Positions 5,895-32,314 of a DNA stretch of 32,314 nt are shown in pieces. This stretch comes from Candidatus Bathyoplasma sp. NZ. GTDB taxonomy: Bacteria; Bacillota_I; Bacilli_A; MAG-NZ. The notes beneath the pieces were generated by a model. The model did no database searches and was not told where the DNA came from. It worked only from the letters and a program-made list of their open reading frames with translations. Numbering within the stretch: position 1 is the stretch's first letter; every line of letters begins with the position of its first letter. Position numbers and translations under genes: made by a program. Location: assembly GCA_013332095.1 (NCBI GenBank), contig JABENI010000019.1, positions 1 to 32,314 on the forward strand, read 5' to 3'.

Positions 5895-5918
5895 TAATCA
5901 TAATTTGAGGTGGTTGCT

Positions 5919-7148
5919 ATGATATTTAACTTAATCGAAAAAGATGTTGTCAGCATTACTGGTGCTGGGGGGAAAACTAGTTTAATGTTTTATTTAGCAA
6001 ATAAGTTAAAGGGAAAAGTACTAGTGACAACTTCGACTAAAATTTATAAATCAAATAATAAAGTTTGTTTTGACAAAGAAGAGATACCGAGTGCTGATGG
6101 ATATTATCTTTACGCTAAAAAAGAAGAAAATAAAAAGTTGAGTGGCTTTAACCGTGACGATTTACTGGAAATAGTCAAAAACTTTAACTACACTTTAATA
6201 GAAGCCGATGGCAGTAAAGAAAAACCTTTAAAAGGTTGGAGTGAAAAGGAACCGGTTATTCACAATTTTTCCAATGTGACGATTGGAGTTTTAAATATCA
6301 ACGCTGTTTTTAGTTCACTAAATCAAGTTTTTAGATTAGAAGAGTTAAAAAAAATAACTAATATTTATGATAAAATTGAAATTGATAATTTAAAGGATAT
6401 CGTCTTAAATGAAAATGGTTTATTTAAAAATAGTGTCAATAGAAAAATATTGTTTATCAATCAAGTTGAGACAGTTGTTTCTGAAAATAACGCGCAAAAA
6501 CTATATCAAAAATTAACTGAAGACGAGCGATTTGATTTAGACCAAATAGTAATCGGTAGTATTCACAATAATAGATTTAAGACTATTTACAGTAAAAAAA
6601 GTATCGTTGTCTTAGCAAGTGGATTAAGTAAAAGAATGGCTAGTTATAAAATGTTAGAAAAATTTAAAGGTAAGCCGTTAGTCGAGCATATTTTAAGTAA
6701 ACTTAGAAACTATCCTGCTAGTAAATATTTAATTGTAAAAGATAGAGAATTAGACCAATTAGCTTCAAAATATTATTTTGAGACAGTTTTGAATAAAAAT
6801 AACAGTAGCGGTATTAGTGAAAGTTTGAAACTAGCAGTGGCAGAAGTTGATGCTGATAATTACAGTTTTTTTTTAGGTGATATGCCTTTTCTAACTGCTG
6901 ATACGATAAGGGCAATAATCAATAATAACAATCAGATAACTTATGTAAGTTGTGGTGATTTGATTAGTGCACCAGTCAGTTTTAACCGGAAATACAAAGC
7001 GGAGATAATGTTGTTAGAAGGAGATGTTGGAGCTAAAAAGATTGTTCAAAAACATTTCGATAAGGCCGTGAAAGTATTGGTTGACAAAAGGGAGTTAATC
7101 GATATTGATACCCAAGAAGAAATCGATAAATACGAGGGTTTAAAATGA
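5919..7148 (+). CDS. yqeC-mocA: YqeC-MocA fusion, molybdenum hydroxylase selenium/Mo cofactor factor
   Basis: 409-aa two-domain protein. Residues 1-225 are YqeC, the P-loop protein linked to selenium-dependent molybdenum hydroxylases: GAGGKTS (15-21), VTTSTKIY (36-43) and EADGSKEKPLKGW (95-107). Residues 228-409 are a MocA-type nucleotidyltransferase: VLASGLSKRM (231-240), the KPLVEHIL substrate loop, FFLGDMPFLT (317-326) with the metal-binding D321, APVSF and GDVGAKKIV. MocA makes molybdopterin cytosine dinucleotide from CTP. YqeC has been linked to maturation, but its reaction is not settled. In E. coli and most Firmicutes these are separate genes. GAGGTGG precedes the ATG at 5919; an in-frame GTG at 5910 lies inside this ribosome site. 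It overlaps yqeB by 4 nt. Confidence 0.88.
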   Translation: MIFNLIEKDVVSITGAGGKTSLMFYLANKLKGKVLVTTSTKIYKSNNKVCFDKEEIPSADGYYLYAKKEENKKLSGFNRDDLLEIVKNFNYTLIEADGSKEKPLKGWSEKEPVIHNFSNVTIGVLNINAVFSSLNQVFRLEELKKITNIYDKIEIDNLKDIVLNENGLFKNSVNRKILFINQVETVVSENNAQKLYQKLTEDERFDLDQIVIGSIHNNRFKTIYSKKSIVVLASGLSKRMASYKMLEKFKGKPLVEHILSKLRNYPASKYLIVKDRELDQLASKYYFETVLNKNNSSGISESLKLAVAEVDADNYSFFLGDMPFLTADTIRAIINNNNQITYVSCGDLISAPVSFNRKYKAEIMLLEGDVGAKKIVQKHFDKAVKVLVDKRELIDIDTQEEIDKYEGLK

Positions 7149-16433: not shown

Positions 16434-18974
16434 ATGTATAATTTAAAGATTAATAATAAAGAATACACGCATGATAAAAATCTTAAACTTATGGATTATC
16501 TGAGAGAAGAATTAAGGTTAACTTCAGTCAAAAATGGTTGTAAGCAAGGTGCTTGTGGTGCTTGTATGGTCATCGTCGATGGACAGGCAAAAAAAGCATG
16601 TGTTTTAACGTTGGAAAAAGTAAGTGGAAAAGAAATAATTACGCTTGAAGGTATTGATTCCAAAGAAAAACAAATTTATGCTGACTGCTATGCGAAAGCT
16701 GGGGCGGTTCAATGTGGTTTTTGTACACCAGGAATGGTAATCAGTACTAAAGCACTGTTGGATAAAGTTAAAAACCCTACTGATGAAGAAATTAGAAAAG
16801 CAATTAGACAAAATATTTGTCGTTGCACTGGGTATCTTAAAATTATCGAAGCGATTAAAATGATCAGTAAATCTTTTTCAAAAGAAATTGTGCAGGACCA
16901 AAATGTAAAAATTGGTAGTAATTTAAAAAGAGTTGATGCCGAGAGTAAAGCATTAGGAGAAGCCATTTATGCAGATGATATTTTTCTAGAAGGAATGCTA
17001 CATGGAGCTATTAGAATTGCGGATGTACCAAGAGGTAAATTAGTTAGCATCAATATTGAAAAAGCAAGTGCCTTAGCAGGAGTAAGAAAGATAATTACTC
17101 ATCAAGATATACCAGGAGAAAATTATCAAGGTTATATTTTTCACGATTGGCCAACTTTTGTTGAAGTAGGGACAGAAGTTAGATATATCGGAGATGTCTT
17201 AGCGGCTGTTGCTGCCGATACTCAAGAAATTGCTTTAGCAGCAGCAAAATTAATTGAAGTAGAAATTGAAGAGTACGAGGCAGTAACCGATCCCATTAAA
17301 GCGTTAGAAGATAACTCAGCTAAAGTTCATGAAAAAGGCAATTTATTGAGTAAAACTCATGTTGAAAGAGGTAGCGTAAAAGAAGCGTTAGCGAATTCTA
17401 AATATACAGTAAAAGAAACATTTTTAACACCGCACACTGAGCATGCTTTTATCGAACCTGAAAGCGTTGTAACTTATTATGAAGGTGAAGTCTTAACGGT
17501 AATTAGTGCTAGCCAAAGTGTTCACCACGATCACGAGGCTCTAACCGGAATTTTAAATTTAGCACACGATAAAATAAGAGTTAAAAGTGTAAACATCGGT
17601 GGAGGATTCGGTGGTAAAGAGGATTTGAGTATTCAACATTTTTCAGCGATGTTAACTTACTACACAAAAGCACCAGTAAAAATCACTTTAACTAGAGACC
17701 AAAGTTTAAAAATACATCCAAAACGTCATTTAATGGTGGTAAAAATCGAAGTTGGTTGTGATGATATGGGATATTTAACAGCTGTTGATGCAAAAATATA
17801 CGCTGATACCGGAGCTTATGCTTCATTAGGAACAGCAGTATTAGAAAGAGCATGTACTCATGCAGCCGGTCCTTATAAAATTAAAAATATTAATTTAGAA
17901 GGGTATTGTGTCTATACAAATAATCCACCGAGTGGAGCATTCAGAGGATTTGGAGTACCACAATCGAATTTTGCAAGAGAAACATGTATCGATCTATTAG
18001 CGGACAAAGTAGGAATTGACAAATGGCAAATCCGTTATCAAAATGCTGTTCAACCAGGTGATTTTTTACCAACAGGTGGACTGTGTGAAGACGATGTTGC
18101 TCTGAAAGAAACTTTAGAGTCAGTTAAAGATGTCTACTACGAAAATATTGATAAAATGATCGGTATTGCCTGTGGGCATAAAAATAGTGGGATTGGAGTT
18201 GGATTGCCTGATTTTGGGAGAGCAAATCTAATCGTTGAAAAGGGAAAAGTAGTTATCTATACTTCAGCTGCTAGAATCGGACAGGGGTTAGCAACTACGA
18301 TGATTCAAATCGCCGGAGAAGTTATTGGCGATTATCCAATTGAGATGGCTGATTCTGATAGTGTCTTAACACCTGATGCCGGGGCGACAACTGCTTCTAG
18401 GCAAACACTGTTTACTGGTGAAGCAACTAGAAGAGCAGCCGTGAAACTTAAAGAAGAGTTAGCGACAACGACTATCGATAAATTAAACGGTAAACAATTT
18501 AGCGGTGAGTACAATGGCGTTACTGATTCACTGGAAAGTGATGCTGAGCATCCAAGAAACCACATTTCATATGGGTTTGCTACTCAAGTTGTTATTTTGG
18601 ATGAAAATAATAAAGTTGGCAAAGTAATTGCCAGTCACGATGTTGGTAAAGCGATTAACCCTTTGAATGTTGTAGGGCAAATTGAAGGTGGCGTTGTCAT
18701 GAGTTTAGGATATGCTCTAACCGAAAAATATAAATTAGAAAAAGGATATTTGAAATCTAAATTTGCCACATTAGGATTATTAAAATCAGTAGATATTCCT
18801 GAGATAGAGTCAATTATAATAGAAAAAAGTAAATCAGAATTAACATTTGGGGCTAAAGGTATCGGTGAAATTTGTAGCGTTCCGACAGCGGCCGCTGTCG
18901 CCAGTGCTTACCGAAAGTTAACCGGAAAATTAGAAACAGAATTACCGCTTAAAAATACGCCTTACAGCAAATAG
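16434..18974 (+). CDS. xdhD: Selenium-dependent xanthine dehydrogenase, Fe-S/Mo fusion
   Basis: 846-aa fusion of a [2Fe-2S] subunit and a Mo subunit, the architecture of XdhD and the selenium-dependent xanthine dehydrogenase family. Cluster ligands are C36, C41, C44 and C56 (CKQGACGAC...AC) and C94, C97, C129 and C131 (CGFC...CRC). From about residue 160 the Mo domain starts with IGSNLKRVDAESKALGEAIY, followed by GGGFGGKED, GAFRGFGVPQSNFARE, AARIGQGLATTM and AKGIGEICSVPTAAAV with the catalytic-base Glu. No FAD domain is present. The selenium is expected as a labile Mo ligand, not selenocysteine; no in-frame TGA occurs. AAAGGA lies about 10 nt before the ATG. It shares a divergent spacer with the two-subunit hydroxylase. 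Confidence 0.92.
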   Translation: MYNLKINNKEYTHDKNLKLMDYLREELRLTSVKNGCKQGACGACMVIVDGQAKKACVLTLEKVSGKEIITLEGIDSKEKQIYADCYAKAGAVQCGFCTPGMVISTKALLDKVKNPTDEEIRKAIRQNICRCTGYLKIIEAIKMISKSFSKEIVQDQNVKIGSNLKRVDAESKALGEAIYADDIFLEGMLHGAIRIADVPRGKLVSINIEKASALAGVRKIITHQDIPGENYQGYIFHDWPTFVEVGTEVRYIGDVLAAVAADTQEIALAAAKLIEVEIEEYEAVTDPIKALEDNSAKVHEKGNLLSKTHVERGSVKEALANSKYTVKETFLTPHTEHAFIEPESVVTYYEGEVLTVISASQSVHHDHEALTGILNLAHDKIRVKSVNIGGGFGGKEDLSIQHFSAMLTYYTKAPVKITLTRDQSLKIHPKRHLMVVKIEVGCDDMGYLTAVDAKIYADTGAYASLGTAVLERACTHAAGPYKIKNINLEGYCVYTNNPPSGAFRGFGVPQSNFARETCIDLLADKVGIDKWQIRYQNAVQPGDFLPTGGLCEDDVALKETLESVKDVYYENIDKMIGIACGHKNSGIGVGLPDFGRANLIVEKGKVVIYTSAARIGQGLATTMIQIAGEVIGDYPIEMADSDSVLTPDAGATTASRQTLFTGEATRRAAVKLKEELATTTIDKLNGKQFSGEYNGVTDSLESDAEHPRNHISYGFATQVVILDENNKVGKVIASHDVGKAINPLNVVGQIEGGVVMSLGYALTEKYKLEKGYLKSKFATLGLLKSVDIPEIESIIIEKSKSELTFGAKGIGEICSVPTAAAVASAYRKLTGKLETELPLKNTPYSK

Positions 18975-19032
18975 AAAAAAAATAATCAATAAATATCTAA
19001 TTGTGAAAATGATTAAAAACAATAAAAAAAAC

Positions 19033-19061
19033 TTGTTTTCTAGAATTGGCAATGCTATAAT
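19033..19061 (+). promoter_or_regulatory. Promoter of the dpaL-ygfK operon
   Basis: TTGTTT (19033-19038), a 17-bp spacer and TGCTATAAT (extended -10, hexamer at 19056-19061). This is the best promoter in the window. It predicts a leader of about 105 nt before the gene at 19174. Confidence 0.8.
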
Positions 19062-19092
19062 ACGGTGATAGTCTATATCGGAAAATGTAAAT

Positions 19093-19126
19093 AAAGTAAT
19101 GTGTTTTTACTGTAAAACATTGCTTT
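19093..19126 (+). promoter_or_regulatory. Leader hairpin of the dpaL-ygfK operon
   Basis: AAAGTAATGT (19093-19102) pairs with ACATTGCTTT (19117-19126), 10 bp with one G-U pair, with extra T-A pairing inside the loop. Just downstream come ACAG and a run of seven T (19135-19141). ACAGT there can also pair with ACTGT in the hairpin loop, so two mutually exclusive folds are possible, as in attenuators. This is by eye only. Confidence 0.45.
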
Positions 19127-19173
19127 AAAAACAGTTTTTTTGTGAAACTAAAAAAATAATATAGGAGGTTTGT

Positions 19174-20637
19174 ATGAAATTTAATCAAATTGATTTAACT
19201 ATTAATGAAAAAACATTAGCGAACGCTGTGAAACGTGCTAAAGAAAATGGAATTGTTATACCTACTTTAAAGCAAATGAAAAATCCGGATTTAATTCCTA
19301 TGGAAGTTAAAAACGAATTAAAAAAATTAGGTACTCAAGAACTTAATCCAGCAAATTTATTTAGAATTAACTGGCATAATGAGCCAAAAAGTGAAGGTGG
19401 ATTATACGCTTCACCTAATTACGTCGTTTTACCAGAAGCAATTACCGGAACAAAAGCAAAAATCGTAGCGATGAGTGGAAAATATTTCCCCACAGGTGCG
19501 CACAAAGTTGGAGCTGCATTCGCTTGTTTAGTACCAAGACTAGTAACTGGACAATTTGATCCAACTACAACTAAAGCAGTATGGCCATCAACTGGTAACT
19601 ACTGTCGTGGTGGAGCTTATGATTCAGCTTTATTAGGATGTCAATCAATAGCTATTTTACCAGAAGGAATGTCAAAAGAGAGATTCGAATGGTTAGAAAA
19701 AGTAGCTGGAGAAATTATCAAAACTTATGGATGTGAATCAAATGTTAAAGAAATTTTTGACAAATGTAATGAATTAAGAGCATCTGGTGATGATTTAATG
19801 ATTTTCAATCAATTTGAAGAATTTGGTAACTACCTATGGCACCATGAAGTAACTGGTTCAGCTGTGGAAGAAATTGTTAAAGAAGTTGGTGGAGATTTAC
19901 GTGGATTCGTAAGTTCAACAGGTTCTGGAGGAACTATTGCTGCTGGAGATTACTTGAAAAAAATTTATCCAAAAAGTAAAATTGTTGCTGCAGAAGCACT
20001 ACAGTGTCCAACTATTTACGAAAATGGATTTGGAGACCACAGAATAGAAGGTATCGGGGATAAACATATTCCTTGGGTACACAACGTTAAAAATACTGAC
20101 TTAGTTGCAGCAATTGATGATGAAATTGCGATGAACTGGATCAGAATGTTCAATGAAAAACCAGGATTAGATTTATTGAGAAAAAAAGGTGTATCAGAAA
20201 AAGTAATTTCTAAATTAAACTGGGCTGGTATTTCTGGAAGCGCAAATGTTATTGCGGCGATTAAAATGGCTAAGTATTTCGAAATGGGAGAAGATGATGT
20301 TATCGTTACAATCTTAACTGACTCTATCGAAATGTACGGTTCAAGATTAGAAGAATTAACCGAAGAAAAAGGTGCATTTACAGCTGAAGATGCTGCTGTA
20401 GTGTACGGTAGATATTTCCAAGGAATTGGAATCGATCATATTAAAGAATTAAGTTATTATGAAAGAAAAGCAGTTCATAACTTAAAATATTATACTTGGG
20501 TTGAACAACAAGGAAAGAGTTACGAAGAAATTTGTGCTCAATGGGATGATGATACGTATTGGTCAAGTATTCCCGAGCAAGCTGAAAAATTAGATGCATT
20601 AATCGATGCATTCAATAAAAAAGTTAGAAACGCTTAA
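19174..20637 (+). CDS. Fold-type-II PLP-dependent enzyme of unknown substrate
   Basis: 487-aa pyridoxal-phosphate enzyme of the tryptophan synthase beta/cysteine synthase superfamily. The PLP lysine is probably K111 in KYFPTGAHKVGAAF. The phosphate-binding glycine loop is SSTGSGGT (about residue 248). STGNYCRGGAYDSALLGC matches the N-loop that contacts the substrate carboxylate. It is longer than cysteine synthase (about 310 aa) because of an N-terminal extension and a C-terminal tail (after TDSIEMYGSRLEEL) rich in Glu and Tyr. AGGAGG precedes the ATG. It is the first gene of a long operon, directly before diaminopropionate ammonia-lyase. It probably acts on a related amino acid or provides its substrate. 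The reaction is unknown; lyase, beta-replacement and synthase are all possible. Confidence 0.75.
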   Translation: MKFNQIDLTINEKTLANAVKRAKENGIVIPTLKQMKNPDLIPMEVKNELKKLGTQELNPANLFRINWHNEPKSEGGLYASPNYVVLPEAITGTKAKIVAMSGKYFPTGAHKVGAAFACLVPRLVTGQFDPTTTKAVWPSTGNYCRGGAYDSALLGCQSIAILPEGMSKERFEWLEKVAGEIIKTYGCESNVKEIFDKCNELRASGDDLMIFNQFEEFGNYLWHHEVTGSAVEEIVKEVGGDLRGFVSSTGSGGTIAAGDYLKKIYPKSKIVAAEALQCPTIYENGFGDHRIEGIGDKHIPWVHNVKNTDLVAAIDDEIAMNWIRMFNEKPGLDLLRKKGVSEKVISKLNWAGISGSANVIAAIKMAKYFEMGEDDVIVTILTDSIEMYGSRLEELTEEKGAFTAEDAAVVYGRYFQGIGIDHIKELSYYERKAVHNLKYYTWVEQQGKSYEEICAQWDDDTYWSSIPEQAEKLDALIDAFNKKVRNA

Positions 20638-20665
20638 TCAATTGAGTAAAGTAGAGGTAAGGAAA

Positions 20666-21862
20666 GTGTCGATAATCAAATACATTAAAAATTCCAGAAA
20701 AAATAATCAGTTAAACGCTGAAACAGAAATTTTTTCTAAAGTTAATACAGAAAAGATTCACACTTTTCACCAATCTATGGGAGTTGCATATAATGTGACT
20801 CCTTTAGAAGAACTTAGTAAACTAGCTAAGTTTATTGGTGTTAAAAGTGTCTTTGTAAAAGATGAATCTAAAAGAGGTAATTTAAAAGCCTTTAAATTAT
20901 TGGGTGGAGCGTACAGTGTTGCATCTAGTATTTGTAAAAAATTAGGCTTAGATATCAGCGAAGTAAACTTCGATTATTTGAAGTCAACTGAAGTAAAAGA
21001 AAAATTAGGTGATTTGACTTTTGCCGCAGCTTCAGATGGAAATCACGGAAAATCAGTAGCTTGGGCAGCAAATGAATTTAACCAAAGTTCAATTGTTTAC
21101 ATGCCAAAAGGTACTGTTAAAGATAGAATTACAGCAATTGAAGAATTAAACGGTACCGTAATTGTTACGGATATGACGTACGATGGGTGCGTAAGTGAAG
21201 TAACTAAATTGGGAAAAGTGAAAGGATGGGAAATCATTCTTGACACGGCAGCTGAAGGAGACCCAGAAGTAGCAACTTGGGTAATGCAAGGATATGCTAC
21301 TATGGCCTATGAAGCATACAATCAATTGAAAGATAATGATGTTACACCAACACATATTTTCTTACAAGCGGGAGTAGGCTCAATGGCAGCAAGTGCAATG
21401 GGAGTATTCATTAACTTTACTTACCCTAATTGTCCAAAGTTCTATACGTTAGAACCACACCAAGCTTGTTGTTATTACAAATCAGGTTTAGAAAATGATG
21501 GAACGGCAAAAAGTGTTGAAGGTGATTTAGATAGTATAAGTGCAGGATTATCTTGTGGAGTACCTAATCCAATTTCTTGGGAAATTATTAGAAACTTCGC
21601 TGAAGGATTCATTTCTTGTGATGATACTATGGCAGCAAATGGAATGCGAATTTTAGCTAACCCGTTAGCTGGTGATAAGGCAGTTATCTCAGGTGAATCA
21701 GGGGCTATCGGCGCTGGATTTATCGAGGCAGTTATGAAAGACAAACTTAAAGACGAGTTAGGATTAAATCAGGATTCAGTAGTATTATTGTTCAGTACTG
21801 AAGGTAATACTGATACAGTGAACTACCGCGAAATTGTTTGGTACGGTAAATATTCAGGATAA
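20666..21862 (+). CDS. dpaL: Diaminopropionate ammonia-lyase
   Basis: 398-aa PLP enzyme (DpaL/YgeX) converting 2,3-diaminopropionate to pyruvate and two ammonia. The GTG start at 20666 has AGAGG 8 nt upstream. It gives exactly the 398-aa length of the E. coli enzyme and places the PLP lysine at K77, as in E. coli; an in-frame ATG at 20606 lies inside the preceding gene. Motifs are VKDESKRGNLKAFKLLGGAY (64-83), the catalytic-Asp region AASDGNHGKSVAW, DMTYDGCV, LDTAAEGDP and AGVGSMAASAMG. It follows the other PLP enzyme by 28 nt and precedes ygeY, as in E. coli, where ygeX is followed by ygeY. Confidence 0.95.
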   Translation: MSIIKYIKNSRKNNQLNAETEIFSKVNTEKIHTFHQSMGVAYNVTPLEELSKLAKFIGVKSVFVKDESKRGNLKAFKLLGGAYSVASSICKKLGLDISEVNFDYLKSTEVKEKLGDLTFAAASDGNHGKSVAWAANEFNQSSIVYMPKGTVKDRITAIEELNGTVIVTDMTYDGCVSEVTKLGKVKGWEIILDTAAEGDPEVATWVMQGYATMAYEAYNQLKDNDVTPTHIFLQAGVGSMAASAMGVFINFTYPNCPKFYTLEPHQACCYYKSGLENDGTAKSVEGDLDSISAGLSCGVPNPISWEIIRNFAEGFISCDDTMAANGMRILANPLAGDKAVISGESGAIGAGFIEAVMKDKLKDELGLNQDSVVLLFSTEGNTDTVNYREIVWYGKYSG

Positions 21863-21927: not shown

Positions 21928-23136
21928 ATGAAAACAAATTACGAAAGAGTTAACGAAAAAGCAAGTGGATACAAAGTAGCAATGTGTAAGTTTTTAAGAG
22001 ATTTAATTAGAATTCCTGGTGAAAGCTGTGGAGAAGAAGGCGTTATTTACAGAATTAAAGAAGAGATGGAAAGTTTAGGTTTTGATAAAGTAGAAGTGGA
22101 TCCTCAAGGTAATGTTTTAGGTTATGTAGGAAATGGTGATACTTTAATCGCTATTGATGCTCATATTGATACAGTAGGTGTTGGGAACATTAGCAACTGG
22201 GATTTTGATCCATATGAAGGATTCGAAGATGATGAATGTATCGGTGGACGTGGAGCAAGTGACCAATTAGGTGGTATTGTTTCAGCAGTTTACGGTGGTA
22301 AAATCATGAAAGATTTAGGTTTATTAGATGGTGTAACTGTTTTAGTAACGGGGACAGTTTTAGAAGAAGACTGTGATGGTTTATGTTGGCAATATATTAT
22401 CAATGAAGATAAAATCAGACCAGAATTTGTAGTAATTACTGAACCAACAAATGGAAATATTTACCGTGGTCATCGTGGTAGAATGGAAATTAGAGTTGAT
22501 GTAAAAGGAATCTCTTGTCATGGTAGTGCACCAGAGCGTGGAGAAAATGCTATTTACAAAATGGCTGAAATTTTAAAAGAAGTTGAAGCTTTAAATGATA
22601 AATTACACTTTGATGCGTTTTTAGGAAAAGGAACTTTAGCAGTTTCAGAAATTTTCTTCACTTCACCATCAAGATGTGCTGTGGCAGATAGTTGTGCTAT
22701 CTCAATTGACCGAAGATTAACTGATGGAGAAACTTATTTAAGTGCTCAAGAAGAAATCAGAGCGTTAGACAGTGTTAAAAAACATGGAGCAGTTGTTACG
22801 ATGTATCGATATGACAAACCAGCATTCACTGGTTTAGTTTATGAAACAGATTGTTATTTCCCAACTTGGGTAATTCCGGCAAATGCTGAACCAACTACGG
22901 CGATAGTAGAAGCGTTTAAGGGTGTTAAAGGATTCGCTCCAAAAGTTGACAAATGGACATTCTCAACTAATGGAGTTTCAATTATGGGTAGAGAAGGAAT
23001 TCCATGTATTGGTTACGGACCAGGTAAAGAAGAAGAAGCACATGCACCGAATGAGAAAACTTGGAAACAAGATTTAGTAGATTGTGCTGCTGTATATGCG
23101 GCTTTACCACAAAGTTATTTAGCTCAAAAAAAATAA
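21928..23136 (+). CDS. ygeY: YgeY family M20-type metallohydrolase
   Basis: 402-aa M20 family zinc hydrolase of the YgeY (selenium metabolism-linked) type, related to acetylornithine and succinyl-diaminopimelate deacylases. Zinc ligands are H79 and D81 in [11 protein letters not shown]112 in [10 protein letters not shown] and the Glu pair in VLEEDCDG (E146/E147). The dimerisation domain contains [20 protein letters not shown], and the C-terminus has the late His ligand in [12 protein letters not shown]. The natural substrate is unknown; by its neighbours it may release diaminopropionate or an amino acid from an acyl or carbamoyl conjugate (inference). GGGAGAG precedes the ATG. Member of the ygeWXY set, here in the order X-Y-W. 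Confidence 0.93.
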
Positions 23137-23190: not shown

Positions 23191-23242
23191 TTGCAGTTAT
23201 ACTTAGATAAAAAAAACAAAAAATTTGAAGGAGATATTAAAA

Positions 23243-24436
23243 ATGAAAGACATTAAAAAATTAATTGGTAGTTTAAGCGCTTTAGAATTTTCAAAAATGT
23301 ACAATAACGATTTCTTATTGACATGGGAAAAAACTGATCAAGAAGTAGCAGCAGTATTAAAAGTAGCTGAAATTTTAAGAGAGATGAGAGAACAAAATAT
23401 TTCTAGTAAAATCTTTGATAGTGGATTAGGAATTTCTCTATTTAGAGATAACTCTACTAGAACTAGATTTTCATTCTCAAGTGCTTGTAACTTATTAGGA
23501 TTAGAAATTCAAGATTTAGATGAAGGAAAATCTCAAGTTGCACATGGTGAAACGGTAAGAGAAACAGCGAACATGATTTCGTTCATGGCTGATGTTATCG
23601 GAATTAGAGATGACATGTACATCGGTAAAGGTAACACTTACATGCGTGAAGTATCTAAATCAGTTGTTGAAGGTAACAAAGATGGGGTATTAGAACAAAG
23701 ACCAACGCTAGTTAACTTACAATGTGATATCGACCATCCAACTCAATCAATGTCAGATTTAGCTCATTTAGTTGAAGAATTTGGGGGAATTGAAAACTTA
23801 AAAGGTAAAAAAATTGCTATGACTTGGGCATATAGTCCATCTTACGGTAAACCATTAAGTGTACCTCAAGGAATCATTGGTTTATTAACTAGATTTGGAG
23901 CTGATGTAGTGTTAGCCCATCCAGAAGGTTACGAAGTAATGCCTGAAGTTGAAGCAATAGCAAGAAGAAATGCTCAAGAATCAGGTGGTAGTTTCGTTAA
24001 AACTGACCGTATGGCAGTAGCATTTAAAGATGCTGATATCGTTTATCCAAAATCTTGGGCACCGTTCAAATCTATGGAAAAACGTACTGAATTATACGGA
24101 AACCGTGATTTTGATGGAATTGATAGATTAGAAAAAGAATTATTAGCTCAAAATGCTAACCATAAAGATTGGGAATGTACTGAAGAGTTAATGTCAACTA
24201 CTAAAAATGGTAAAGCATTATACATGCACTGCTTACCAGCAGACATCACTGGGGTAAGTTGTAAAGAAGGGGAAGTAGTAGCAAGTGTATTTGATAGATA
24301 TAGAGTAGCTACTTACAAAGAAGCAAGTTACAAACCATATATTATTGCTGCAATGATATTCTTAAGTAAAGTGAAAAATCCAGGAACAACTTTCGGTAAA
24401 TTATTAGAAAATAAAAAATCAAGACATTTCGAATAA
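23243..24436 (+). CDS. ygeW: Knotted carbamoyltransferase YgeW
   Basis: 397-aa transcarbamylase-superfamily enzyme of the YgeW type, whose members have a knotted fold and an unidentified second substrate. The carbamoyl-phosphate loop is FRDNSTRTRFSF (68-79, STRTR at 71-75). DIDHPTQSMSDLAHL corresponds to the HPTQ motif, and MHCLPADI to the HCLP motif. The E. coli protein is almost the same length. AAGGAGA is 8 nt before the ATG at 23243; a TTG at 23225 in frame lies before this site and is not needed. It may use carbamoyl phosphate in reverse to feed ATP production by a carbamate kinase; no such kinase is in this window. Confidence 0.94.
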   Translation: MKDIKKLIGSLSALEFSKMYNNDFLLTWEKTDQEVAAVLKVAEILREMREQNISSKIFDSGLGISLFRDNSTRTRFSFSSACNLLGLEIQDLDEGKSQVAHGETVRETANMISFMADVIGIRDDMYIGKGNTYMREVSKSVVEGNKDGVLEQRPTLVNLQCDIDHPTQSMSDLAHLVEEFGGIENLKGKKIAMTWAYSPSYGKPLSVPQGIIGLLTRFGADVVLAHPEGYEVMPEVEAIARRNAQESGGSFVKTDRMAVAFKDADIVYPKSWAPFKSMEKRTELYGNRDFDGIDRLEKELLAQNANHKDWECTEELMSTTKNGKALYMHCLPADITGVSCKEGEVVASVFDRYRVATYKEASYKPYIIAAMIFLSKVKNPGTTFGKLLENKKSRHFE

Positions 24437-24446
24437 GAGGTAGAAA

Positions 24447-25775
24447 ATGAAATTAATAGGTAATGGAACATTAATAACAAGAAATGAAAAACAACCGCTA
24501 ATTTTTGATGGTTGTGTAGTTATCGATGGTAAAGAAATTGTTGATTTCGGAAAAACTTCGGAAATGACTGCAAAATATCCAGGTGAATTTACTGATGCAT
24601 TAGGTAAATTAATTATGCCAGGGTTGATCAACACCCATCACCATATCTACAGCGCGTTTGCTAGAGGTATGTTTATGAAAGATGCAAAACCAGCAACGAG
24701 TTTTGCGGAAATTTTAGAGAATTTTTGGTGGAGAATAGACAAAGTTTTAAATTTAGAAGATGTAAAATACAGTGCCTATGCTACGATGATGGATTGTATC
24801 AAAAATGGTGTAACAACAATATTTGATCATCATGCTTCCCAAAGTTATGTTGAAAAAAGTTTGTTTACTTTAGCAGATGTTGCCAAAGAATTAGGACTGA
24901 GAGCTTCATTTTGTTATGAAGTAACAGATAGAGATGGATTAGATATAAGAGACAAAGCAATTAAAGAAAATATTGATTTTATCAAGTATGCAAATGCCGA
25001 TAAATCAGATATGGTTAAAGGAATGTTAGGAATTCATGCATCATTTACTGTTTCAGAAGATACCCTTAAAAAGTGTGTTAAAGAAATGGGCGATTTAAAC
25101 GCAGGATTCCACATTCATACTGCTGAAGGTATTGAAGACTTACATGACTCTTTAAACAAATATGGTAAGAGAGTTATTCAAAGATTGTTCGATGCTGGAA
25201 TAATGACAGATAAGTCAATTTTAGTTCACTGTATTCATGTAAATGATGCAGAATTAAATTTGGTTAAAGCTACAAATTCAATCATTGTTCACAATCCTGA
25301 ATCTAACATGGGGAATGCAGTTGGTTGTACCCCAATTTTACCGATGTTCGAAAAAGGACTTACAGTAGGATTAGGAACTGATGGATATACATCAGATATG
25401 TTCGAATCGTTAAAAGTTGCTAATATAATTCACAAACATCATTTATGTAATCCAACGGTTGCCTGGGGAGAATCTCCAGCAATGTTGTTTGACAACAACA
25501 GTAAAATTGCCAATAGATTTTTCAATAAACCAGTAGGTACTATTGAAAAAGGTGCTTATGCTGATATTATAGTTGTTGATTATGATCCGTTAACACCACT
25601 TAATGACCTTAACATTAATTCACATATGTTATTTGGAGGAACTGGTAGAGCTGTAGTATCTACTATGATCAACGGTGAATTTGTTATGAAAGACAGAATT
25701 ATTTTAAACGTAAATGAAACAAAAATTTTAGAAAAGTCTCGTGAAGTTGCTACAGATTTCTGGGGAAGAGTTTAG
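24447..25775 (+). CDS. ssnA: Putative aminohydrolase SsnA
   Basis: 442-aa amidohydrolase-superfamily protein, the exact length of E. coli SsnA. The metal-binding HxH is at 64-66 in GLINTHHHIYSAFARGM. Further ligands are in GFHIHTAEG, LVHCIHVND and GLGTDGYTSDMFES. Related enzymes deaminate guanine, cytosine or chlorotriazines, so a purine or other heterocycle is a reasonable substrate class, but the activity is not established. GAGGT precedes the ATG, and the gene is 10 nt after ygeW and 9 nt before ygfK, the same ssnA/ygfK partnership seen in E. coli. Confidence 0.94.
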   Translation: MKLIGNGTLITRNEKQPLIFDGCVVIDGKEIVDFGKTSEMTAKYPGEFTDALGKLIMPGLINTHHHIYSAFARGMFMKDAKPATSFAEILENFWWRIDKVLNLEDVKYSAYATMMDCIKNGVTTIFDHHASQSYVEKSLFTLADVAKELGLRASFCYEVTDRDGLDIRDKAIKENIDFIKYANADKSDMVKGMLGIHASFTVSEDTLKKCVKEMGDLNAGFHIHTAEGIEDLHDSLNKYGKRVIQRLFDAGIMTDKSILVHCIHVNDAELNLVKATNSIIVHNPESNMGNAVGCTPILPMFEKGLTVGLGTDGYTSDMFESLKVANIIHKHHLCNPTVAWGESPAMLFDNNSKIANRFFNKPVGTIEKGAYADIIVVDYDPLTPLNDLNINSHMLFGGTGRAVVSTMINGEFVMKDRIILNVNETKILEKSREVATDFWGRV

Positions 25776-25784
25776 GAGATTAAT

Positions 25785-28784
25785 ATGAGTGAAATAATGA
25801 GAATGATCCCTTTCGACAAACTGATGAATTGGATGCTTACGGAATACAAAGAAAGCGGAAGTATTTTTGGAATTAAAAAAAATAAGTTTTATAAAAATGA
25901 GAGTGGAACTTATTTAGAAATATTTGGTGATAAAATTTCCTCACCTGTAGGACCAGCTGCTGGTCCTAACTCTCAGTTGGCTCAAAATATTGTTAGTTCT
26001 TACTTAGGGGGAGCTAGATTTATTGAGTTAAAAACTGTTCAAATTATGGATGGAGAAGAGTTAAGAAAATGTGTACCTAGACCGTGTATTAATGCTGAAG
26101 ATGAATGTTATAATGTTGAATGGTCAACTGAACTATACGTTCCTGAGGCCTTTGCAGAATATGTAAAAGCGTGGTTCGCCTGTCAAGTAATTGCTAAAGA
26201 ATTAGGAATTAGTGCTTCAAAAGACTTTATCTTTAACATCAGTTTAGGATATGACTTAGAAGGTATTAAATCAGAAAAAATTGATAAGTTTGTCGAAGGG
26301 ATGAAAGATGCTTCTAATACCGAAATTTTTAAAACTTGTAAAAATTATCTATTAAATAATTTAGATAAATTTAACAATGTTGATAAAGATTTCGTGGAAA
26401 GTATTTCACCAGTAGTATCACCTTCCGTAACTTTATCTACTCTTCATGGATGTCCTCCAGAAGAGATAGAAAAAATTTCTAGATATTTAATTAGTGAGAA
26501 AAAAATGCATACTTACATCAAATGTAATCCAACATTATTAGGGTATGAATTTGCCAGAACTACTTTAGATAAAATGGGATATGACTATCTGGGATTTGAT
26601 GATCATCATTTCAACGACGATTTACAATATAAAGATGCTATTCCAATGTTTAAACGTTTAATCGATTTCTCAGCAGAAAACAATGTTGAGTTTGGCTTGA
26701 AAATTACTAATACTTTCCCGGTACAAATTTTAAGAAATGAGTTACCAGGAGAAGAGATGTATATGTCAGGACGTTCATTATTCCCATTATCAATTAGTTT
26801 GGCTAATAAACTAAGTAAAGAATTTGAAGGGAAACTTACAATTTCTTATTCAGGTGGTGCTGAATATTTCAATATTGAAGAAATCGTAAAAAGTGGAATT
26901 AGACCTGTTACAGTTGCGACAACAATTTTAAAACCAGGTGGTTATGAAAGATTAAATCAGTTAGCAAAAACTACTGAGTCTTTATTAGATGGAAAATTCA
27001 AGAAAATGAATTTAAAAGTTTTAGATAAATTAGTTAAAAATGTTACTACTAACTCATTCCATGTAAAAGATATGAGAGTTGTTGGCTCTAGAAAAACTGA
27101 TTCTAAATTAGAATTAGCTGATTGTTTTAAAGCTCCATGTAAAGATGGTGGTTGTCCAATTGAACAACAAATACCAGAATATTTAAACTTAGTAGCTAAT
27201 GGTAAATTTGCTGAAGCATTTGATGTAATCGCAATTGATAATGCTGCACCAAGTATTACCGGTACGATATGTGACCACCAATGTCAACATAAATGTACTC
27301 GTTTAGATTATGATAAACCTTTACAAATACGTTCTGCTAAATTGGTTGCTAGCGATAATGCTCAAAGTAATTTCACTGATCAATTTTCTGTTAGTGAATT
27401 AAAAACAGATAAAAAAGTGGCAATCGTTGGTGCTGGTGCTGCCGGTATTAGTACTGCATTGTACTTAAGAAGAAATGGGGTTAGCGTTACGATATTTGAA
27501 AAACGCAGCAAGCCCTATGGTATTGTAGAATATACCATTCCTGAATTTAGAATTAAAAATTCTTCAATCAAAAGAGATTATGATATGGCTGTTAAAACAG
27601 GTGTTGAATTTAAATTTAATACGAAAATTGACAGTATAGATAAATTAAAGGTAGATTATGGTTATGTCGTAATAGCAGTTGGTTCATGGGGAGAAAATCC
27701 GTATAGCCTAACATCTAAAACTTCAAAAACATACGATGCTTTAAAATTTTTAGAAGAAGCTAAAGAAAAAGATTGTAAATTGGATTTAGGTAAAGAAGTT
27801 ATCGTTATCGGTGGTGGAGATGTATCAATGGATGCCGCTAGAAGTGCAAAACGTGCTCTTAATAATCCAAATGTTACGTTAGTATATCGTCGAACTAAAG
27901 CAAATATGCCTGCTACTCATGAGGAAATTGTCGAAGCAATCGAAGAAAATATTTCTTTCCATTATTTAAGAAAAATTAATTCTTTCGAAAATGGAATTGT
28001 CGTAATTGAAAAAACTAAATTAGTTGATGGAAGAGCAAAAGCAACAGGTGAAACTTACGAAATGAAAGTGGATACTATCATCAATGCTATCGGGGCAAAA
28101 GTAGAGACAGGTTTCTTTACTGCTAATAAGATTGAATTGAATAAATATAACACGCCAGTTATCAATGAAAATAATGAAAGTAGCGTAACTAATGTATACG
28201 TTGCGGGTGATTGTAAAGTAGGACCTAAAACTGTTGTTAAAGCGTTAGCTGATGGTAAAAAAGTTGCAATAGATATTTTAAATAAATTAGGATTAAGCAA
28301 TGACTTTGTCAGAGTCAATTATCCAATCGATAAAGAGATATTATTTAATAAAAAAGGTATTTTAATTGCTAAACTAGCAGATAAGTTTGATGGGAGCCGT
28401 TGTTTATCATGCGACCAAATATGTGATTTATGTGCTGATGTATGCCCAAATAGAGCTAATCTTAGTATTAGAGTTCCCAGCAATGAATTTGCCCAAGCAA
28501 CACAAATTTTACACGTAGATGGTATGTGTAATGAGTGTGGTAACTGTGGAGTATTCTGTCCACATAGTGGAAATCCATACAAAGATAAAACGACATTATT
28601 CTGGAGTTTGGAAGATTTAAAAGATAGTGAAAACATTGGATTTGTTAAACTAGATGATAAAAACTTCAAAGTAAGAACAGAAGATGGTAAAATTGTCGAC
28701 TACAAATTAGGAGATAGTAATATTTCGAGTACTTTAATTACTTTTATTAATGCTGTGGTTGACGAATATGAATATTTATTTTAA
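25785..28784 (+). CDS. ygfK: YgfK, putative selenate reductase-like flavin/Fe-S subunit
   Basis: 999-aa multidomain oxidoreductase. Residues 1 to about 440 resemble a dihydroorotate dehydrogenase/flavin barrel (SSPVGPAAGPNSQ, FIELKTVQ, TLHGCPPEEIEKI, SGGAEY). A GltD-like Fe-S segment follows (CFKAPCKDGGCPIEQQIPEY, CDHQCQHKCTR). Next comes a FAD domain (VAIVGAGAAGISTALYL, about 548) and an NAD(P) site (VIGGGDVSMDAARSAKR, about 672), then a C-terminal domain with two 4Fe-4S motifs (CDQICDLCADVCPNR, about 874; CNECGNCGVFCPHSGNP, about 913). E. coli YgfK (1032 aa) was called a selenate reductase subunit, but its true reaction is unclear. AGGAGA precedes the ATG. Last gene of the operon. It is the only FAD/NAD enzyme near the two hydroxylases. 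Confidence 0.92.
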   Translation: MSEIMRMIPFDKLMNWMLTEYKESGSIFGIKKNKFYKNESGTYLEIFGDKISSPVGPAAGPNSQLAQNIVSSYLGGARFIELKTVQIMDGEELRKCVPRPCINAEDECYNVEWSTELYVPEAFAEYVKAWFACQVIAKELGISASKDFIFNISLGYDLEGIKSEKIDKFVEGMKDASNTEIFKTCKNYLLNNLDKFNNVDKDFVESISPVVSPSVTLSTLHGCPPEEIEKISRYLISEKKMHTYIKCNPTLLGYEFARTTLDKMGYDYLGFDDHHFNDDLQYKDAIPMFKRLIDFSAENNVEFGLKITNTFPVQILRNELPGEEMYMSGRSLFPLSISLANKLSKEFEGKLTISYSGGAEYFNIEEIVKSGIRPVTVATTILKPGGYERLNQLAKTTESLLDGKFKKMNLKVLDKLVKNVTTNSFHVKDMRVVGSRKTDSKLELADCFKAPCKDGGCPIEQQIPEYLNLVANGKFAEAFDVIAIDNAAPSITGTICDHQCQHKCTRLDYDKPLQIRSAKLVASDNAQSNFTDQFSVSELKTDKKVAIVGAGAAGISTALYLRRNGVSVTIFEKRSKPYGIVEYTIPEFRIKNSSIKRDYDMAVKTGVEFKFNTKIDSIDKLKVDYGYVVIAVGSWGENPYSLTSKTSKTYDALKFLEEAKEKDCKLDLGKEVIVIGGGDVSMDAARSAKRALNNPNVTLVYRRTKANMPATHEEIVEAIEENISFHYLRKINSFENGIVVIEKTKLVDGRAKATGETYEMKVDTIINAIGAKVETGFFTANKIELNKYNTPVINENNESSVTNVYVAGDCKVGPKTVVKALADGKKVAIDILNKLGLSNDFVRVNYPIDKEILFNKKGILIAKLADKFDGSRCLSCDQICDLCADVCPNRANLSIRVPSNEFAQATQILHVDGMCNECGNCGVFCPHSGNPYKDKTTLFWSLEDLKDSENIGFVKLDDKNFKVRTEDGKIVDYKLGDSNISSTLITFINAVVDEYEYLF

Positions 28785-30092: not shown

Positions 30093-32314
30093 ATGAAAAA
30101 AAGAAAAAATATTTTAAAAAAAGTAAGTTACTTATTGATGATAATATCATTAACAATAGTAGCATTCTTAGCACCAAGATTTATAGAAATGGAGGTAAAT
30201 GCGGCAATTACTAGTTCTGGATATAGCAAGACTCAAAGTTATTTGGTTCTGATAGATAGCGGGAAAATAAAAGAAGTTTTTGTCAATGAAACCAGTGTAT
30301 ATAAGACATCACGACCAAATACTAATTCCGTGCAAATTAATTTAGTAATAGAGGGAAATAATATAGTAAGAGTATTGAGTGATTCTGGTGAAATAAGTAT
30401 TAAAACTGTAATATGGGATGAAAAAGCACCAGTAATAGGAGCAGTATTAGGAGGACCAGTAAATGCAGAAGATGTTCCAAATTGGACAGCACCAATATCA
30501 ACAGTAGAAGATAATATAGCCATAGGATTAATAGCAGATGAATCATACTATAAAGCAGATGGAACAACTTTAATAGATAAAACAGCAGCAAGAACAGAAG
30601 CAGCACAAGGAAGAGATGTAGTAATGAAATATAATGCAACTGATGCAGCAGGAAATGCAGCAGATGAAGTAAAAGCAATATTTACCCTAAACAATACAAT
30701 ACCAACATTACCAACAGTAACAATAATAAGTGATAATGGAAATAATACAGAATTTGCAAAAGAAAGAGATACAATTACTTTATCAATAATAGCTAGTGAG
30801 AACATCCAAACACCAACAGTAACAATAGCAGGAGAAACAACAACAGTAACAGGAAGTGGAGATACATATAGTGCAACTTATACAGTAGATGGAAATACTC
30901 CAGAAGGAGTAGCAGGAATTTACGTAACATATGTTGATGAAGCAGGGAACGCTGGTTCACCAGTAACAACAACAACAAATTCAAGTACAGTAAAGATAGA
31001 TAAAACAGCACCAACAATACAAGTAATTAACCAGAATCATGAATTTGCAAAAGAAGGAGATAAAATAATTTATTTAATAATAGCTAGTGAGGACATCCAA
31101 ACACCAACAGTAACAATAGCCGGACAAACAACAACAATAACAGGAAGTGGAGATACATATACTGCAACACATACAGTAGATGAAAATACTCCAGAAGGAG
31201 TAGTAGGAATTAACATAACATATGCTGATGAGGCAGGGAACGCAGGTACTCCAGTAATAGCACCAACAGATTCAACTACAATAATAGTAGATAAAACTAA
31301 ACCAATATTAAAAACAATAACAATAGAAAGTGATAACGATGATCCAACATCAGCAAAAATAGGAGATGCTATTACATTAAGGTTTACAAGTAATGAAAAG
31401 TTAATAACAATACCGACAGTAACACCGACAGTAACAATAGCAGGAGAAGTAGTAACAGTAATAGAAAGTGAAAATGAATATATTGCAATTTATATAGTAG
31501 CAGTTGAAACTCTTGAAGGATTAGTGAAAATTGACATAACATATGCTGATGAGGCAGGGAACGCTGGTTTGGAAGTAACAGCAACAACAAATTCAAGCAC
31601 AGTAACAGTAGATACAACATCACCGACATCAACAGTAACAATAATAAGCGATAATGGAAATAATACAGCATTTGCAAATGTAGGAGATAGAATAACAGTA
31701 TCTATAACAGCTAGTGAGGACATCCAAACACCAACAGTTACAATAATAGGAGAAACAGCAAATGTAACTGGAAATGGAGGTACATATAGTGCAACTTATA
31801 CAGTAGATGAAAATACTCCAGAAGGAGTAGCAGGAATTTACGTAACATATGCTGATGAGGCAGGGAACGCAGGTACTCCAGTAATAGCACCAACAGATTC
31901 AAGCATAGTAACTGTAGATAGAACATCACCGACATCAACAGTAACGATAATAAGCGATAATGGAAATAATACAGCATTTGCAAATATAGGAGATACAATA
32001 ACCGTATCTATAACAGCTAGTGAGGACATCCAAACACCAACAGTAACAATAGCAGGAGAAACAGCAACAGTAACAGGAAGTGGAGATACATATAGTGCAA
32101 CTTATACAGTAGATGAAAATACTCCAGAAGGAGTAGCAGGAATTTACGTAACGTATACTGATGAGGCAGGGAACGCTGGTACGGCAGTAACAGCAACAAC
32201 AGATTCAAGTACAGTAACAGTAGATACAACAGTACTAACATTATCAACAGTAACAATAATAAGTGATAATGGAAATAATACAGCATTTGCAAATATAGGA
32301 GATACAATAACAGT
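30093..32314 (+). CDS. Secreted Ig-like repeat surface protein, 5' part
   Basis: Open from the ATG at 30093 to the window end (740 codons, no stop). The N-terminus is a signal peptide: a KKRKNILKK positive start, a hydrophobic core (LLMIISLTIVAFLA) and likely cleavage after VNA at residue 37. Residues 38-207 form a unique region with one ATDAAGNA segment. From residue 208 tandem Ig-like units of about 100-106 aa follow, each with TVTI, a GDTITVSITASEDIQTPTV block, GDTYSATYTVDENTPEG and a YADEAGNAG end. This suggests a long cell-surface adhesin or fibre. No cysteine is present. Codon use is unlike the neighbours: ATA replaces ATT for Ile, and ACA/GTA/GCA dominate. An anchor motif would lie beyond the window. 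The long minus-strand open frames here are shadows of the biased repeats. Confidence 0.9.
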   Translation, partial: MKKRKNILKKVSYLLMIISLTIVAFLAPRFIEMEVNAAITSSGYSKTQSYLVLIDSGKIKEVFVNETSVYKTSRPNTNSVQINLVIEGNNIVRVLSDSGEISIKTVIWDEKAPVIGAVLGGPVNAEDVPNWTAPISTVEDNIAIGLIADESYYKADGTTLIDKTAARTEAAQGRDVVMKYNATDAAGNAADEVKAIFTLNNTIPTLPTVTIISDNGNNTEFAKERDTITLSIIASENIQTPTVTIAGETTTVTGSGDTYSATYTVDGNTPEGVAGIYVTYVDEAGNAGSPVTTTTNSSTVKIDKTAPTIQVINQNHEFAKEGDKIIYLIIASEDIQTPTVTIAGQTTTITGSGDTYTATHTVDENTPEGVVGINITYADEAGNAGTPVIAPTDSTTIIVDKTKPILKTITIESDNDDPTSAKIGDAITLRFTSNEKLITIPTVTPTVTIAGEVVTVIESENEYIAIYIVAVETLEGLVKIDITYADEAGNAGLEVTATTNSSTVTVDTTSPTSTVTIISDNGNNTAFANVGDRITVSITASEDIQTPTVTIIGETANVTGNGGTYSATYTVDENTPEGVAGIYVTYADEAGNAGTPVIAPTDSSIVTVDRTSPTSTVTIISDNGNNTAFANIGDTITVSITASEDIQTPTVTIAGETATVTGSGDTYSATYTVDENTPEGVAGIYVTYTDEAGNAGTAVTATTDSSTVTVDTTVLTLSTVTIISDNGNNTAFANIGDTIT
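30714..32314 (+). repeat. Tandem Ig-like coding repeats, 300-318 bp
   Basis: Units begin at about 30714, 31014, 31314, 31632, 31938 and 32247 (the last cut by the window edge), giving steps of 300, 300, 318, 306 and 309 bp. Unit 3 is the most diverged (PTVTPTVTIAG insertion, NEKLITI instead of SEDIQT). Units 4 and 5 are nearly identical at DNA level, which points to recent duplication or gene conversion. Confidence 0.93.

Follow-up and report, generated by a model that had tools for sequence, protein, structure and literature searches.

Why does a gene cluster for the reductive breakdown of uric acid encode two enzymes dependent on pyridoxal phosphate (PLP)? In Escherichia coli, the urate cluster comprises ygfK-ssnA-hyuA-ygeW-yqeA-ygeY-ygeX, and YgeX, which converts 2,3-diaminopropionate (DAP) into pyruvate and ammonia and accepts both isomers, is the sole PLP enzyme listed in the accessible part of PMC12507026. 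A different arrangement is found in Candidatus Bathyoplasma sp. NZ, where a stretch of 32,314 nucleotides (contig JABENI010000019.1, hereafter the window) carries the gene of another PLP enzyme, P0001, before that of a diaminopropionate ammonia-lyase (DAL). A preliminary description of this locus, made from the sequence alone, had presented P0001 as an uncharacterised enzyme heading the dpaL operon, lacking a known equivalent among the E. coli genes, which agrees with the gene list above, and with a possible link to purine or diaminopropionate breakdown. What would such an enzyme do in a pathway that E. coli completes with YgeX?

A PLP enzyme of CysK/CBS fold in a urate cluster

P0001 is encoded by an intact open reading frame of 487 amino acids, with an ATG start and no internal stops, and its only Pfam match is PALP (PF00291, 2.9e-23, residues 106-331). 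The top NCBIfam match, cysK (TIGR01139), scores 121.9 bits where the cut-off is 350.95, and the score with the cystathionine beta-synthase (CBS) model TIGR01137 also stays below its cut-off (87.9 bits, cut-off 510.25). Since even the best score falls under the curated cut-off, P0001 has no named family; it lies under every curated family cut-off, and the term uncharacterised was apt. No match at E<=1e-3 was obtained with the DAL models (TIGR03528/NF006058), nor with 2-amino-4-oxopentanoate thiolase (OrtB, NF040741) among the 11 families listed.

An AlphaFold2 model built from 37 family members (pLDDT 86.9, pTM 0.89) has a fold of the CysK/CBS class, in agreement with the earlier assignment to fold-type II. 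The core that can be aligned to PDB chains spans approximately residues 44-401, and the remaining ends are largely helical in the model, so that the extensions beyond the cysteine synthase core are also confirmed. Its structural relatives, all distant, are chains of cysteine synthase and CBS, with VIA Z scores of 28-30 over 281-317 residues and 18-29% identity; a close homologue whose ordinary role is proven did not turn up. Neither DAL nor racemases, including those of the serine-racemase type, occur among the Foldseek and VIA matches listed (50 for VIA), a result compatible with either activity.

With CysK and CBS, P0001 shares the fold, the PLP-binding lysine, the motifs of the substrate and phosphate loops and a Q-F...N...H...T-G segment; it differs from them in its extra N- and C-terminal helices, the GAHK motif around Lys111 and the loop HRIEGIGDK (289-297). 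Lys111, the STGN loop (139-142) and the GSxGT loop (250-254) are retained in 92-94 of 94 relatives. Like YgeX/DpaL, P0001 is a fold-type-II enzyme at the same position of the pathway, but it belongs to another subfamily, and STGNY, whose Thr140 is invariant (94/94), stands where DAL has DGNHG. Lys77 and Asp120 are given as potential catalytic residues of E. coli DAL in the accessible part of PMC4000059.

Judging from the alignment, HRIEGIGDK is the signature of the P0001 family. Asp296 and Lys297 are each present in 93 of the 94 relatives, the remaining row being a gap or unread, and the aligned place reads HAIQGIGAGF in Thermotoga CysK and YKVEGIGYDF in yeast CBS, where Ala-Gly and Tyr-Asp, respectively, stand for the Asp-Lys pair. 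These two residues could contact the beta-substituent of the substrate, possibly as a cradle for a beta-ammonium group, in a loop where the model is least reliable (pLDDT under 50 at 287-296).

Table 1. Features of the window around the P0001 gene
Feature	Position	Strand	Remarks
Selenium-dependent xanthine dehydrogenase (XDH) type protein	16434..18974	+	TIGR03311 over cut-off; candidate urate dehydroxylase, putative XdhD-like role
Candidate promoter (TATAAT 19056-19061), AT-rich inverted repeat, AGGAGGT ribosome site	19030..19173	+	TATAAT read by eye
P0001, fold-type-II PLP enzyme	19174..20637	+	CysK/CBS-type core, N- and C-terminal extensions
Divergent diaminopropionate ammonia-lyase (DAL*)	20606..21862	+	Asp-Gly-Asn-His kept; TIGR03528 499.5 bits (cut-off 532.25), NF006058 475.5 (cut-off 276)
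YgeY, hydrolase of ureido groups in the reductive urate pathway	21928..23136	+	TIGR03526 over cut-off; function according to the accessible part of PMC12507026
YgeW knotted carbamoyltransferase	23225..24436	+	TIGR03316 over cut-off
SsnA amidohydrolase	24447..25775	+	TIGR03314 over cut-off
YgfK flavin/Fe-S reductase (yanthine reductase)	25785..28784	+	TIGR03315 over cut-off

As SsnA, YgfK, YgeW and YgeY all exceed curated cut-offs, the cluster is, by these family models, that of the reductive uric-acid pathway (Table 1). It resembles the E. coli cluster in these four proteins, in its XDH-type proteins and in having a DAL, and differs from it by the addition of P0001 and by a DAL of a divergent subfamily. 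The D-hydantoinase, a step absent from the window, is encoded on another contig of the same genome (G000:C34:53816-55153, 452.5 bits, over the cut-off), and the idea of P0001 as a stand-in for a missing hydantoinase was discarded on that account. The window proteins scanned include no carbamate kinase, and an Rfam scan of the window gave zero matches at the gathering score.

The P0001 gene does stand before dpaL, the start of the DAL* frame overlapping its 3' end by 32 bases, and an AGGAGGT ribosome site lies directly upstream. Its place as first gene of the operon is plausible, but the XDH gene, on the same strand, ends 199 bases upstream, which makes a longer transcript possible. A consensus promoter scan reported no + strand promoter at 19030-19173, despite the TATAAT box read by eye; this box and the AT-rich inverted repeat between both genes could be an operator. 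Elsewhere in the window, the gene at 5910-7148 encodes one protein that matches YqeC (residues 13-203) and the MocA/YgfJ cytidylyltransferase (232-404), an apparent fusion of two selenium/Mo-cofactor maturation factors, and 30093-32314 holds the beginning of a long repetitive protein with very similar repeats, Ig-like by eye, that runs off the window.

Genomic partners of P0001

Among the best 80 of 581 confirmed P0001 loci, the closest named relatives share 77% (Mycoplasmatota zrk6) and 75% (Candidatus Izemoplasma) with P0001, which makes a wall-less anaerobe similar to Izemoplasma the probable host. In a plasmid collection, coverage of P0001 reached at least 80% in two records only (Rhizobium and Bosea), whose homologues (42%) have sulfite-exporter and M20 genes nearby and no clear pathway; on the Bosea plasmid (L102), two open reading frames at a distance of a few kb resemble pieces of a DAL, perhaps a broken gene.

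The same 80 loci, many of which are cut by contig ends, revealed a frequent companion of P0001: a second PLP enzyme similar to threonine synthase, here called c1, which occurs within 8 kb and always on the same strand in 41 of them, DAL being found at that distance in five. The c1 of locus L058 scores as a threonine synthase with TIGR00260 (171.4 bits, cut-off 167.1) and remains below the cut-off of NF006050 (259.3, cut-off 303). Other recurrent neighbours are YgeW- or OTC-like carbamoyltransferases, carbamate kinase, hydantoinases, Mo-hydroxylases and, by eye, nucleoside-type ABC transporters. In clusters of Bacilli and Clostridia, c1, P0001 and YgeY are contiguous with YgeW or OTC-like/carbamate kinase genes, SsnA, YgfK and XDH, and P0001 adjoins YgeY in most of the clusters fetched from these classes. 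The neighbourhood survey that the preliminary description had called for thus places P0001 beside YgfK, SsnA and YgeY, with c1 or a divergent DAL, and not canonical dpaL, as partner.

This linkage to pathway genes is conserved across Mycoplasmatota, Bacillota and Desulfobulbaceae. A second context appears in many Anaerolineae, where a set of genes for a biotin-dependent decarboxylase (named by eye) surrounds P0001 and most urate-type neighbours are absent. In three Anaerolineae loci (L126 5896-7860, L127 11309-13314 and L128 10966-12975), tandem carbamoyltransferase-like genes accompany carbamate kinase, with YgeY weak or absent, and L129 likewise carries two carbamoyltransferase-like genes plus carbamate kinase; possibly, these YgeY-poor Anaerolineae remove both ureido groups with a gain of ATP. 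At L024 and L025, P0001 lies away from pathway genes and an ordinary DAL is found elsewhere.

Two genome surveys extend these observations. The first covered 38 genomes chosen via P0001, reached through 38 of the best 80 loci, with c1 counted at E<=1e-60: c1 occurs in 32 and DAL in 12, so that 26 genomes have c1 only, six DAL only, six both and none lacks either. In two of them (G082 and G096), a DAL-YgeY cluster is separate from the c1-P0001 module, which may therefore serve another substrate there. For most genomes, c1 was rejected as the housekeeping threonine synthase, because 29 of the 32 with c1 hold another thrC match over the cut-off; in G061, G065 and G080, c1 is the sole such match.

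The second survey comprised 391 Clostridia drawn evenly and, except for the centre genome G066, not chosen by P0001. At thresholds of E<=1e-60 for P0001 and E<=1e-80 for SsnA, 11 genomes have P0001, 30 SsnA and 40 DAL. SsnA accompanies P0001 in 10 of 11 genomes, against 20 of the 380 without P0001. The c1 scores split in two groups, 11 hits of at least 409 bits and 18 of at most 240 bits, and the high-scoring c1 is present in 10 of the 11 genomes with P0001. In G137, the only exception, the P0001-like gene (35%) is not part of the purine cluster, which itself carries DAL; conversely, in the only genome with a high-scoring c1 and no P0001 (G217), c1 is cut off at a contig end. These data firmly tie P0001 to the reductive urate pathway and give good support to the link with purine and diaminopropionate breakdown proposed earlier, now in a more precise form, with DAP as a putative substrate.

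The tie to canonical dpaL, on the other hand, did not hold: P0001 and DAL coincide in one of the 11 Clostridia with P0001 (the gene outside the purine cluster), no more than expected by chance, and 39 of the 40 with DAL lack P0001. Among the 30 Clostridia with SsnA, 10 have c1, 17 DAL, none both and three neither (Fisher p ~1e-5, kinship ignored). As c1 and DAL never share an SsnA-bearing genome, the pair of c1 and P0001 appears to replace canonical DAL (YgeX). The family counts are likewise uncorrected for kinship; on the P0001 tree, the ten pathway-linked Clostridia occupy some three branches, and thus represent few independent events.

The window belongs to a minority state, in which a DAL adjoins P0001 and no c1 is nearby; it shares this state with its relatives L002, L003 and L021/L022 and with L029-L031, which are Clostridia. 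Three changes on the P0001 tree are required to account for it, which suggests repeated exchange of c1 and DAL next to P0001. When seven P0001-adjacent DALs were compared with 21 others, five of them from P0001-bearing genomes with DAL elsewhere (L148-L152), they differed at nine positions where the latter are at least 95% invariant: T143S, R149K, G150S, Y219D, P223A, T310S, A316S, E319V and L328I (window numbering). Three of these changes flank the catalytic Asp-Gly-Asn-His, itself retained. With nine near-invariant residues altered, the label of ordinary diaminopropionate ammonia-lyase for DAL* may be wrong. In L029 (5518-7098) and L030 (3261-4849), genes of an Fe-S L-serine dehydratase, SdaB and SdaA, directly follow the P0001-DAL pair, and the zrk6 chromosome (G002) holds two P0001-DAL copies at two places (L021, L022), each near YgeY and YgeW.

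Possible reactions of P0001

Tentatively, and at a likelihood somewhat below even, we propose that P0001 is a PLP enzyme dedicated to catabolism, which divides with a partner lyase the work on DAP that YgeX does alone. XDH-type proteins, YgfK, SsnA, the hydantoinase encoded elsewhere in the genome, YgeW and YgeY would reduce and open urate to DAP. The PLP on Lys111 would form an aldimine with the alpha-amino group of the substrate, the beta-amino group would leave by an alpha,beta-elimination of the CysK/CBS type, and P0001 would release a C3 unit, either serine after addition of water or aminoacrylate. The partner lyase, c1 in most lineages and the divergent DAL in the window, would finish the deamination. 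We infer the substrate (DAP or its mono-ureido precursor), the type of reaction and how the two enzymes share the work from the gene, fold class, pathway linkage, partner exchange and replacement of canonical DAL computed here.

Two compounds of the pathway offer a free alpha-amino group, albizziin and DAP. DAP is the likelier common substrate, because P0001 mostly adjoins YgeY and the YgeY-poor Anaerolineae have two carbamoyltransferases. If c1 needs P0001 and YgeX does not, P0001 would supply something that YgeX has and c1 lacks, either a separate removal of the beta-amino group or the handling of the other enantiomer. The first is preferred because of the CysK/CBS class of P0001, the acidic residue lost in DAL* (E319V) and the L-serine dehydratase after DAL at two loci. 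Against it, the window DAL keeps Asp-Gly-Asn-His and may carry out the whole reaction, leaving P0001 unexplained.

Handling of the enantiomer is nearly as good an explanation of that dependence, weakened by the Asp kept in the window DAL. Here, a D-hydantoinase route would give D-DAP, P0001 would be a DAP racemase or a D-DAP lyase and c1 an L-DAP lyase, YgeX taking both isomers. According to the accessible part of PMC12507026, HyuA is D-stereospecific and E. coli YgeX shows the same activity on the L and D forms, and PMC12990295 treats the stereochemistry as unsettled. Such a split accounts for a need of P0001 with c1 but not with DAL, c1 having Thr at the second-base Asp120 of DAL. However, a DAL with its second-base Asp, as in the window, should not need P0001, and P0001 itself has Thr140, not Asp, at this position. 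Its nearest folds are CysK and CBS, which act on L-amino acids. As a full account, we regard this split as possible but unlikely.

It is improbable that P0001 is instead a beta-lyase of albizziin (3-ureidoalanine) that releases urea and bypasses YgeY. Albizziin is the proposed product of YgeW in the accessible part of PMC12507026, and YgeY is absent at E<=1e-60 from 7 of 39 P0001 genomes; but the paired carbamoyltransferases and carbamate kinase of L126-L128 and L129 offer a simpler removal of both ureido groups, which weakens such a lyase as the sole answer to a missing YgeY, and most fetched Bacilli and Clostridia clusters keep YgeY next to P0001.

Decidedly improbable is an assimilatory branch, in which P0001 would combine purine-derived DAP with sulfide into cysteine or another beta-substituted alanine of that kind. 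The CysK/CBS-like fold fits this role, as does the host genome, which has no further CysK relative at E<=1e-3, and so does a cluster of Xianfuyuplasma zrk13 (G4Z02_01105-01195), with genes for a 'cysteine synthase', a 'threonine synthase', a carbamoyltransferase, an aminohydrolase and XDH, up with thiosulfate in the accessible part of PMC8397711, which draws no link to urate breakdown; the identity of P0001 and c1 there is suggested by the annotations. However, the related genomes G002 and G003 and the f7 genomes carry separate CysK-like genes, and the strict tie to c1 would be left unexplained. Finally, an ordinary cysteine synthase lying here by chance is hardly credible: its top family matches are cysK/cysKM, but the score is under half of the cysK cut-off, the CysK loop AGF is DKH in P0001 and the genomic linkage is conserved across phyla, as described above.

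A variant of the known urate pathway

The P0001 gene is real and consistently linked, and with its partner it is a variant of the known urate pathway, in which c1 and P0001 stand elsewhere in place of YgeX. Possibly related clusters have been noticed before: a nucleotide and amino-acid cluster of zrk29 is up with DNA and RNA (PMC10470597, accessible part), and 'xanthine-degradation loci' of Izemoplasmatales appear in the accessible part of PMC8289736. A 2008 paper on selenium-dependent hydroxylases (PMC2276186) lists ygeW, ygeX and ygeY, and the terms cysteine synthase, threonine synthase and pyridoxal are absent from it. No second PLP enzyme of the urate pathway is mentioned in the accessible part of PMC12507026 or in the review PMC12990295, and no description of the P0001/c1 variant was found in the literature searched, with subscription papers mostly outside its reach. 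Li et al. marked YgeX by PF00291 (legend of Fig. 3g, accessible part of PMC12507026), a family that also holds P0001 and presumably c1, so the variant could have been counted there as YgeX.

We consider it marginally likelier than the contrary that anaerobes have a second, unrecognised way to finish urate degradation, where P0001 and a threonine-synthase-like lyase, or a retuned DAL, act for YgeX; the activity of P0001 would then be new (beta-deamination of DAP to serine, racemisation of DAP or a ureidoalanine lyase), and the module would have been hidden by the common Pfam family. A survey that takes the Pfam family as its marker of YgeX, or relies on DAL alone, would misjudge both the set of organisms able to complete the pathway and their route. 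P0001 and c1 are seemingly ordinary soluble enzymes with few candidate substrates, and they touch a question that the literature leaves open, namely in which order and with which stereochemistry the last urate steps proceed, in a process, the use of urate by anaerobes, with a bearing on gout, on the ecology of the gut and on how DNA is recycled in sediments.
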